Shown one piece after another: positions 47,178 to 50,140 of a DNA stretch of 64,000 nucleotides. Every line of letters starts with the position of its first letter. Within the stretch, counting starts at the first letter, position 1. Origin of the DNA: Fusibacter paucivorans. GTDB lineage: Bacteria; Bacillota; Clostridia; Peptostreptococcales; Acidaminobacteraceae. The stretch spans positions 1-64,000 of the forward strand of contig NZ_JAHBCL010000007.1 of assembly GCF_018390735.1 (NCBI RefSeq), in the 5' to 3' direction. The notes under the pieces were generated by a model. It saw only the letters and a list, made by a program, of their open reading frames with translations, made no database searches and had not been told where the DNA came from. Position numbers and translations under genes: made by a program.

Positions 47178-47206
47178 TTGACAGTAAGAGGTGTTAGGTG
47201 TACAAT
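47178..47206 (+). promoter_or_regulatory. promoter of copA-csoR
   Basis: Perfect TTGACA (47178-47183) and TACAAT (47201-47206) with a 17-base spacer. Confidence 0.9.
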
Positions 47207-47210
47207 GAAG

Positions 47211-47232
47211 ACACACCCCTGGTGGGGTGTGT
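47211..47232 (+). promoter_or_regulatory. CsoR operator
   Basis: Palindrome ACACACCCC-TGGT-GGGGTGTGT covering the expected transcription start; G/C-tract palindromes of this type are bound by CsoR, encoded at 49877. Confidence 0.8.
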
Positions 47233-47249: not shown

Positions 47250-49868
47250 ATGCAAAAGGAAAAATACGATATCACCGGCATGACCTGTGCAGCATGTTCA
47301 CTGGCTGTTGAGAAAAGCGTTCAGAAAGTGACGGGTATCTCATCCGTATCTGTTAATCTCATTACGAATACGATGGAAGTCACTTATGATGCTGATTCGG
47401 CAGCACCGAACACGATTATCAAAGCGGTAGAGGATGCCGGCTATGGTGCAACACAGTCGCTTGATGAAATAAAAATGGAAATTGATAAAGCGCATTCGGA
47501 AGAAAAAGCAGCGTTTGAAAAACGGTTGAAAATATCGTTGATTAGTACCATACCACTGCTTTATATCACCATGGGACACATGGTTGGATTACCGTTGCCG
47601 TCATTTATGACGCCGCATGATGCACCGCTTGCTTTCGCAGTAATTCAACTGCTTCTGACATTGCCGGTTATTTGGCAAGGACGAAGTTTTTATGAACACG
47701 GTTTTAAAACACTGTGGCACAGAAATCCGAATATGGATGCGCTGATTGCCGTTGGTACAAGTGCAGCACTGCTCTATGGCCTCTTCGCATTGGTTCAGAT
47801 TGCGATTGGCGTAATGACGCAGGACGATGTGCTGGCACATAAATACGTCAATGATTTGTACTTCGAATCTGCTGCAGTTATTCTAACATTGATTACAGTC
47901 GGTAAATATTTGGAAGCACGTGCTAAAGCCAAAACATCAGATGCGATTAAAAAGCTTATTGATCTCGTTCCTAAAACAGCACTTTTATTTAAAGAGGGTG
48001 AGACGTATGAAATTCCGCTGACAGATGTCAAAGTAGGTGACGTCCTTGTCGTAAGACCGGGTGCACAAGTGCCGGTAGATGGTCAAATTGTTGAAGGTGG
48101 TGCTGCTGTAGATGAATCAATGCTTACTGGTGAGAGTATCCCCGTTGAGAAGCAAGTGGGTGATGTTGTCATTGGGGCGTCGATTAACAAAACAGGCTAT
48201 TTTAAAATGGAGGCAACGCGCATTGGCAATAACACGATGTTGGCGCAAATTATTCGTCTTGTACAGGATGCACAGTCCCAGAAAGCGCCGATTGCAAAGA
48301 TTGCGGATAAAATCAGCGCGATTTTTGTACCAACAGTGCTCGGAATCTCTTTGACGGCTTTTGTTGTCTGGCTGCTTATGGGTTATGATTTTGTCTTTGC
48401 CATGAGTATTGCCATTTCCATTCTTGTTATATCCTGTCCTTGTGCGCTTGGATTGGCGACGCCAACGGCGATTATGGTAGGAACTGGAAAAGGTGCAGAG
48501 CTCGGCGTATTGATAAAAGGCGGCGAAGCGCTGGAAATGACGCATTTAGTCGACACAATTGTCATGGATAAGACTGGGACGCTGACAGAGGGGAAACCTG
48601 TCGTGACAGATGTTGTCACTTTTGATTTTGATGAATCACTGATGATGTTATTAGCGGTATCGGCTGAAACACCATCAGAACATCCGCTTTCTGAGGCGGT
48701 TAAACAATATGGTGAAGTCCATGGGATTCGTCCACTGGATACAGTGGCATTTAAAAATATTACCGGCAAAGGCATTATTGCTGAAGTTGACGGTAAACAA
48801 ATCTATATTGGCAATTCTTCGCTGATGAAAAGTGTTGGGATTGATGATGCTCATGCGCGCGAAAAGGCAGAAGCATTTGCAGAAATTGGAAAGACACCTT
48901 TGATGATTGGTATTGACGATAAAGCAGTCGGTGTTATTGCAGCGCTTGATGTACCAAAGTCAACCAGTATTGAAGCGGTTGAACAATTAAACGGTTTAGG
49001 GATTGATGTCATTATGCTGACGGGTGATAATCTGAGAACTGCTAAATATGTGCAGGAGCAGCTCAACATTGAGACCTGTTATGCAGAAGTCATGCCGGAT
49101 GAAAAAGATAAAGTCGTTGCAGCACTCATGGCGCAAGGCAAACGCGTGGCCATGGTAGGTGACGGGATCAATGATTCGCCCGCACTTGCAAGAGCTGATG
49201 TGGGTATTGCTATTGGAAGCGGTACCGACGTTGCAATTGAAGCGGCAGATATTGTTTTGATGAAAGGTGATTTGAGGGATGTCGTTTCAGCGGTTACACT
49301 GAGCCAGGCAACCATTCGCAATATCAAACAGAATTTGTTCTGGGCATTTTTCTATAATACTTTGGGAATTCCCATTGCAGCAGGCGTTTTCTATTTGAGC
49401 TTTGGTTTTAAACTCAATCCAATGTTTGCCGCGGCAGCAATGAGTCTCAGCTCCGTTACGGTTGTGTCTAATGCATTAAGGCTCAGAACTTTTAAACCGC
49501 GGAATGTGAAAGCGCAATCCAAACAACATCAAAGCTTTAAAACTTTGACATTTGGTCAAGAAGACAAACAGGGAAATATCGAAGCGTTGACAACAGACGT
49601 GATTAATGATGACAGTGCGGCTAAAAATAGCCAAATTGAAACGAAAGAGGAGGTAAAACAAATGAAAAAAGAAATGAGTATTGAAGGGATGTCTTGCAAT
49701 CACTGTAAAATGAGAGTAGAAAAAGCATTAAACGGCATTGAAGGTGTAAGTGCAGAAGTTGATCTCGAAGCCGGTAAAGCAATGATTAGCATTATGGGTG
49801 AAGTTGACGAAGTCGTCTTAACGGAAGCCGTTGAAGAAGCTGGCTATAAAGTATTGGGATTAAACTAG
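47250..49868 (+). CDS. copA: copper-exporting P1B-type ATPase CopA with fused C-terminal CopZ domain
   Basis: A protein of 872 residues. An N-terminal metal-binding domain (GMTCAACS) is followed by eight membrane helices, the Cu(I) motif [11 protein letters not shown], the phosphorylation site [17 protein letters not shown] and [20 protein letters not shown]. After the last helix, a linker of about 60 residues leads to an extra C-terminal HMA domain (GMSCNHC) like the chaperone CopZ. Copper export ATPases usually carry HMA domains only at the N-terminus. The ATG at 47250 is preferred to a GTG at 47238 because it lies 8 bases after AAAGGTGG. See the internal start at 49662. Confidence 0.95.
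49648..49655 (+). promoter_or_regulatory. internal ribosome binding site within copA
   Basis: AGAGGAGGT (49647-49655) is a near-perfect anti-16S match, 6-8 bases before the in-frame ATG at 49662. It lies inside the linker coding region, where no such purine block is needed for protein function. Confidence 0.65.
49662..49868 (+). CDS. CopZ-like copper chaperone from an internal start (predicted)
   Basis: In-frame initiation at this ATG would produce a free 68-residue protein starting [15 protein letters not shown], ending at the copA stop. Length and layout (start, GMxCxxC about residues 9-15, four-strand ferredoxin-like fold) match stand-alone CopZ, which delivers Cu(I) to CopA and to CsoR. 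E. coli also obtains a free chaperone from copA, but by ribosomal frameshifting at the N-terminal domain. Here the mechanism would be internal initiation at the C-terminal domain. This is predicted, not shown. Confidence 0.6.
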
Positions 49869-49876
49869 GAGCGGCC

Positions 49877-50140
49877 ATGAGAAAAGATCGCTCTGAAACG
49901 TTAAAGCTGCTTAGAACATCAAAAGGGCAGATCGAAGGCATCATCAAAATGATTGAAGATGAGCGATACTGTATTGACATTTCAAAACAAATATTAGCGG
50001 CGCAAGCTCTTTTAAAAAAGGCCAATCACCAAATTTTAAAAACACATATGGAAACATGTGTGAAAGATGCCTTTGCCAATAACAACGGTGATGAAAAAAT
50101 CGAGGAAGTCATTGGTATTTTGGATAAATACTACAAGTAA
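49877..50140 (+). CDS. csoR: copper-sensing repressor CsoR
   Basis: An 87-residue four-helix protein of the CsoR/RcnR family. The Cu(I) ligands are arranged as Cys (YCIDI, about residue 36), His and Cys (HMETC, about 61 and 65), as in CsoR. Copper binding releases the repressor from its operator at 47211. It starts 8 bases after copA in the same operon, so it controls its own synthesis. Family length is normal. Confidence 0.93.
   Translation: MRKDRSETLKLLRTSKGQIEGIIKMIEDERYCIDISKQILAAQALLKKANHQILKTHMETCVKDAFANNNGDEKIEEVIGILDKYYK

Follow-up and report, generated by a model that had tools for sequence, protein, structure and literature searches.

A predicted copZ gene nested in frame within copA of Fusibacter paucivorans and its conservation in related copper pumps

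The copper-pump gene copA of Fusibacter paucivorans very probably holds a nested, in-frame copZ, formed by fusion of copA with copZ, from whose internal start a free chaperone would be made. The gene lies in the window of this study, which is the whole stretch of 64,000 nucleotides that was analysed (contig NZ_JAHBCL010000007.1, positions 1 to 64,000, forward strand). A Shine-Dalgarno (SD) sequence and a start codon precede the C-terminal HMA domain of the pump, and this arrangement is conserved at the nucleotide level and absent from control HMA domains. Sequence comparison thus supports the original prediction that copA encodes a second, CopZ-like product by internal initiation, since 174 of 184 fused CopAs keep both SD and start and the controls are without them.

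Results

Organization of the copA locus

The locus consists of copA and csoR, with a promoter-like site and an inverted repeat upstream (Table 1). The TIGR01511 score of the long frame, together with the CPCALG motif in its translation, identifies it as a P1B-1 Cu(I) ATPase of the CopA type. The Pfam HMA profile (PF00403) matches copA twice, once at either end. No separate copZ lies between copA and csoR, as had been predicted. Across the whole genome, which is 97.5% complete, the profile gave five matches: two in the window's copA, and three distributed over two further long frames of 735 and 799 aa. No small HMA frame was among them.

The region carries six promoter-like sites against a shuffle mean of 8.0; there is no excess, so the match upstream of copA counts for little. 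The inverted repeat consists of ACACACCCC, 4 nt and GGGGTGTGT, and from its position and the usual shape of such operators, we take it to be a probable CsoR operator. Elsewhere in the window, 13 tRNA genes are clustered at positions 47–1296.

Table 1 Features of the copA locus, in positions of the window
Feature	Position	Strand	Evidence or remark
Promoter-like site 5' of copA: TTGACA, 17 nt, TACAAT	47178–47206	+	11 of 12 consensus matches
Perfect inverted repeat	47211–47232		3' of the promoter-like site, 5' of the copA start
copA, 872-aa Cu(I)-exporting P-type ATPase with HMA at N- and C-terminus (long product)	47250–49868	+	TIGR01511, 600 bits (cut-off 397)
N-terminal HMA domain of CopA	47265–47444	+	E = 1.8e-18
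Variable cytosolic linker, last membrane helix to C-terminal HMA	49488–49661 (start approximate)	+	Alignment of fused CopAs
Internal SD, AGGAGGT	49648–49654	+	SD ≥ 4 nt in 174 of 184 relatives
Nested copZ (predicted short product), 68-aa CopZ-like chaperone, ATG to TAG	49662–49868	+	In frame with copA
C-terminal HMA domain with GMSCNHC	49674–49850	+	E = 1.1e-12
csoR, CsoR-type metal-sensing repressor	49877–50140	+	PF02583, 88.9 bits (cut-off 22.8)

A start site inside copA

The linker sequence before the second HMA domain reads AAAGAGGAGGTAAAACAAATG. It contains the purine block AGAGGAGGT at 49646–49654, whose start the original prediction places one base late. Between the last base of the block and the ATG at 49662–49664 lie 7 nt, within the 6–8 bases foreseen, and the frame opened by this ATG ends after 68 residues at the TAG (49866–49868) that also ends copA. 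The arrangement is thus that of a gene within a gene, with an in-frame start codon inside a longer open reading frame and its own ribosome binding site. The predicted strength of this site was confirmed: the block pairs with the anti-SD tail of 16S rRNA at −13.2 kcal/mol, versus −8.2 kcal/mol for the copA start and −6.5 kcal/mol for csoR, and only 2 of the 2819 ATGs on both strands of the window, that at 49662 included, pair with the tail this strongly. The predicted minimum free energy (MFE) of the 60 nt around the internal start is 0, and the 81 nt at this start fold no better than shuffled sequences (z = 1.25).

Synonymous recoding of the eight codons before the ATG produced an equally long SD match in 16% of draws (p = 0.16, window gene alone). 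Because the window's gene by itself cannot exclude synonymous chance, the question was put to relatives. Across these, the recoding null and the changes of SD codon phase described below indicate selection on the internal start beyond that on the amino acids.

The predicted short product

The 68-residue piece on its own scores 51.6 bits with PF00403 (cut-off 24.8), in agreement with the predicted CopZ-like product. If the internal start is used, the product would be a CopZ by its features, namely a free, single HMA domain with the GMxCxxC motif (GMSCNHC) and a length of 68 aa; CopZ proteins are about 66–72 aa long. Solved CopZs of 68–73 aa match residues 3–65 of the short product. The piece falls below the curated NCBIfam cut-offs for CopZ (NF047957, 73.8 against 85; TIGR00003, 54.2 against 62).

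In the proposed mechanism, ribosomes starting at 47250 would make the 872-aa CopA with its tethered C-terminal HMA domain, while ribosomes binding AGGAGGT in the linker would start at the ATG at 49662 and make the free 68-aa CopZ-type chaperone. The latter would bind Cu(I) in the cytosol and deliver it to the pump. That the short form is translated, that it acts as a chaperone and that the two forms occur in a certain ratio, we infer from the sequence.

Conservation of the internal start in relatives

Relatives came from a genome-contig scan (43 loci) and from profile searches in three overlapping genome sets, those of the order (148 genomes), the class (391) and the phylum (299); one of the fused relatives is the strain Fusibacter sp. 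3D3 (L008). Most were retrieved with a profile derived from fused CopAs, and such a profile favours similar sequences. A C-terminal HMA domain on CopA, called unusual in the original prediction, is instead common in Clostridia: it is present in at least 25 of 148 genomes of the order (for 2 of the 25, the match covered just the HMA part of a long frame, and the fetched stretches confirmed them) and in at least 129 of 391 genomes of the class (rows without stops). Removing near-duplicates (90% similarity in the C-terminal part) left 177 of 195 fused CopAs, and eight further ones, one of them redundant, brought the set to 184. Left out of the count were L001–L005, which come from the window's own genome, and L050, which duplicates the window. 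Rows with internal stops were counted as unfused, mostly without fetching, and the long-frame row G520 of the phylum search stands outside the count; some frames in the fused set end at contig ends.

The start was chosen as the best of all candidate starts lying 4–24 codons before the motif of the last C-terminal HMA domain. An earlier rule (first C-terminal HMA, limit of −16 codons) and a stricter membrane-helix pattern gave more exceptions. The earlier rule and sets, of 156 or 177 genes, underlie the figures given here for recoding of all genes, in-gene ATGs, spacing, shifted windows, structure, the length of the internal SD relative to copA's own, phase changes and family codes.

A start codon was present at this place in 183 of the 184 non-redundant fused CopAs (178 ATG, 3 GTG and 2 TTG; one has none), and in 151 of the 184 it lies exactly eight codons before the metal motif. 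An SD at usable spacing has at least 4 nt in 174 of them, at least 5 nt in 162 and at least 6 nt in 120; L290 is positive only through an upstream TTG, and in L258 a start further upstream is used. Loss of the ribosome binding site or the ATG in relatives that keep the HMA domain would have spoken against an internal start; the 174 genes have kept start and SD (at least 4 nt), which the control domains do not. The aligned spacing between SD and ATG is 7–8 nt in 111 of 138 genes. Of the first 177 fused CopAs, 161 have group codes, which represent 49 family codes, and the SD is kept by the majority of members in 46 of these 49.

The surrounding protein sequence is variable. Among the matches listed, 24–99 residues separate the last helix from the metal motif, and linker alignments are poor. 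Little structure is predicted in the start region, with a mean MFE of −2.8 versus −13.2 in the gene body (values not matched for G+C), partly because the local sequence is A-rich (G+C 0.32). Three CopAs with two C-terminal HMA domains (L188, L191 and L193) have AAAGGAG and an ATG before the last domain and none before the first, and these are an internal control within one protein.

Controls against chance

Tandem N-terminal HMA domains provide a control of the same fold, to which the same start rule was applied. Among the second and third domains of such tandems, a small sample (n = 26), an ATG was found in 3, at −8 in 1, an SD of at least 4 nt in 2 and one of at least 5 nt in none. An SD of at least 6 nt precedes 0.7% of 2859 other in-gene ATGs, versus 104 of 153 internal starts. 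Under synonymous recoding, with a null based on the codon usage of copA alone, 1000 draws gave a mean of 25.3 and a maximum of 37 genes with an SD of at least 6 nt, against the 104 observed. When one gene was taken per family group, with each locus lacking a family code as its own group, 47 of 69 on average had such an SD, against an expected 9.5 and at most 20. Additionally, an SD 5-mer is present at the site in 152 of 173 genes, and in 3 of 173, 0 of 171, 8 of 162 and 6 of 131 when the search window is shifted 15, 30, 45 and 60 nt upstream, respectively. Recoding, tandem domains, in-gene ATGs and shifted windows together set a chance occurrence aside.

Codon usage and codon phase point the same way. 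At codon positions four and five before the start, Glu is encoded by GAG in 115 cases and by GAA in 29, a share that choosing the start by its SD somewhat inflates; elsewhere in copA the counts are 2877 and 4667. The SD is read in varying codon phases, with KEE, KGE and xRR spellings in 99, 48 and 4 sequences, respectively. A tree built with FastTree from part of the ATPase requires 24 or more changes of phase; the mean of 50 shuffles was 44, hence phase is partly inherited. Conservation thus concerns the ribosome binding site rather than the peptide.

Origin from adjacent copA and copZ genes

We propose that the nested gene arose from an adjacent copA-copZ pair, in which the copA stop codon would have been lost and copZ would have retained its ribosome binding site and start. 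Such a loss, with the copZ start kept, explains the anatomy of the fused gene. Pairs of this kind are present among relatives: at 21 unfused copA loci a copZ-like gene lies within 450 nt downstream, starting 14–392 nt after the copA stop. These 21 genes start at −8 (18 genes) or −7 (3 genes), and all have an SD of at least 5 nt. No copZ-like neighbour is shown at the unfused loci L020, L023, L024, L029, L037 and L045. The C-terminal domain of the window's CopA and 12 free CopZs from unfused relatives align over their whole length, with 28–39 of 68 residues identical, and the C-terminal and N-terminal HMA domains of this CopA share 20 of 67 residues. On the tree, which holds 175 fused and 21 unfused genes, the state changed at least seven times. 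For example, L074 is fused and sister to the unfused L073 in an otherwise unfused group, and L010 is unfused among fused genes. Selection for the free product would then have maintained the arrangement in Clostridia and in some further members of the phylum.

One of the 21 unfused loci, L072 (genome G102, from the window's family), has features of its own. The C-terminal HMA domain of its copA (L072:1680–2130) reads GMS-TGA-GSC, and the locus stands outside the fused count because of this in-frame TGA. The TGA, in the place of the first metal-binding Cys, is a candidate selenocysteine codon. A tRNA-Sec scoring above the cut-off (77 bits) is encoded in the genome, and downstream of the TGA are stable hairpins (−19.4 kcal/mol, z = −2.2). 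L072 shows no internal start; a separate copZ with an SD lies directly downstream, followed by a csoR-like frame. The copA frame may also be a pseudogene.

The fusion history itself suggests another reading, in which the SD and ATG are left over from the ancestral separate copZ and are now unused. Unfused relatives do show the same copZ start shortly after the copA stop, and some fusions, such as L074, look young. Nonetheless, synonymous drift would erase an unused SD, while in the fused genes the linker amino acids diverge freely and the SD is kept, having been rebuilt in a different codon phase 24 times or more and preserved by the majority in 46 of 49 family codes. Moreover, where two C-terminal HMA domains are present, only the last has SD and ATG. 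We therefore hold a leftover to be quite unlikely; for the family as a whole the phase changes of the SD reject it, a rejection that does not extend to young fusions such as L074.

Slightly less probable still is a second product of transcriptional origin, with a promoter inside copA giving a separate short transcript from which CopZ would be made. There is a precedent in the rpn genes, where an internal ribosome binding site is paired with an internal transcript start (PMC10327210). In the window, the nearest promoter-like site on the same strand (49003–49031) matches the consensus at only 9 of 12 positions and ends 631 nt before 49662, and the scan, which covers one promoter type, gave the above six sites in the region versus 8.0 in shuffles. 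The scan thus lends an internal promoter no support. An internal transcript is compatible with internal initiation and could add to it.

Least likely of all, and very improbable, is a fusion without a second product, in which the purine block would make the ribosome pause or assist folding and the C-terminal HMA domain would act in cis. For the MBDs of such pumps, a role in ion uptake or regulation has been suggested, and Archaeoglobus CopA functions in the absence of both its MBDs (PMC11970713). However, a pause needs no ATG 7–8 nt downstream, the start codon is conserved as much as the SD, and tandem N-terminal HMA domains lack both SD and ATG in nearly every case.

Exceptions among fused genes

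Ten of the 184 fused CopAs have no SD. In L169, L240, L251 and L256 the ATG at −8 is still present and its purine run is weak or badly spaced; L102, L182, L186, L198, L288 and L289 (the last two from one family) have no usable start. For seven of the ten, a small HMA frame was found: in L182 a separate frame with its own SD-like site and ATG closely precedes copA, some 240 nt into the locus; in L186 such a frame immediately follows copA; and L102, L198, L169, L251 and L256 have one elsewhere in the genome. No small HMA frame was found in the genomes of L240, L288 and L289. These three are counterexamples to a simple trade-off, and a rule that every start-less fusion is accompanied by a separate small HMA gene fails on them. 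Strict exclusivity of nested and free copZ was likewise ruled out, since other small HMA frames accompany the fused gene in 24 of 29 genomes.

Two further loci, L142 and L174, have frames of about 123 aa upstream of the fused copA, with an HMA-like motif and a stretch that appears hydrophobic by eye near the N-terminus, followed by a Gly/Cys-rich part. The search for small HMA frames next to copA relied on a loose motif that gave several false matches, and we do not treat it as evidence.

Discussion

A pump and a chaperone from one gene, and genes within genes, are both known already; the variant that appears new is a nested start in copA. In E. coli, where the free domain is the N-terminal HMA, copA is established to yield pump and chaperone via frameshifting (reportedly work of 2017 by Meydan and by Drees, whose titles are cited in PMC7558416). 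Two further sources describe a pump and a CopZ-type chaperone made from this one gene by programmed ribosomal frameshifting (PMC9548414, PMC10187127). The parallel drawn in the original prediction, the same outcome by another route, holds as an analogy. Both systems have a single copA gene with two products, pump and free HMA chaperone, but in E. coli the N-terminal domain is released by a frameshift, whereas the second product predicted here is the C-terminal HMA domain with its own ATG.

The rpn genes are close in layout: they give long and short products, the short one from an in-frame internal ribosome binding site and start (PMC10327210). In both cases a C-terminal domain would also be made separately from an internal site. 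They differ in that the short rpn form blocks the long one as an antitoxin, whereas the metallochaperone here would serve its own pump, and in that an origin from a neighbouring gene is visible here. Adjacent copA-copZ pairs (for example L054, L073, L077, L107, L298 and L301) share the domain, the start position and the SD with the fused genes, but their copA ends before copZ and gives no fusion product.

Archaeoglobus fulgidus CopA, in which one of two MBDs is C-terminal, also has an HMA domain at each end. Its two MBDs are described in PMC11970713, in passages that make no mention of an internal start; the gene was compared by this description only. The same passages report that Archaeoglobus CopZ delivers Cu(I) to the membrane domain of the pump and that isolated MBDs do not do so in vitro (PMC11970713), so the tethered domain may not replace free CopZ. 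We found no report of an internal CopZ start in copA in the open-access literature; since most subscription journals lie outside it, this absence weighs little.

The ratio of the two forms, set by initiation in the original prediction, may depend on the strength of the two sites. Among 105 fused genes in which both could be read, the internal SD is longer than copA's own in 54, equal in 24 and shorter in 27, and a longer internal SD would favour plenty of free chaperone. We consider it likely that in Clostridia and some other members of the phylum a main copper chaperone is hidden inside copA. The two genes would have been joined repeatedly as copA lost its stop codon, and selection would have kept the nested start, giving a tethered and a free copy of the domain, the free one often from the stronger site and probably in excess.

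A copA with a nested start appears to be present in many other Clostridia as well, gut ones among them. The fused, unfused, two-HMA and start-less copAs form a ready comparison set for the question of why a free chaperone is made when the domain is already present in cis. If our reading is true, a conserved chaperone probably goes unannotated in a large share of Clostridia, bacteria from gut samples included, because the nested copZ lies wholly inside copA and in frame. It would also mean that neighbouring genes can fuse without losing the free product, and that the E. coli frameshift has an independent parallel, a further and repeatedly evolved route to a pump and its chaperone.
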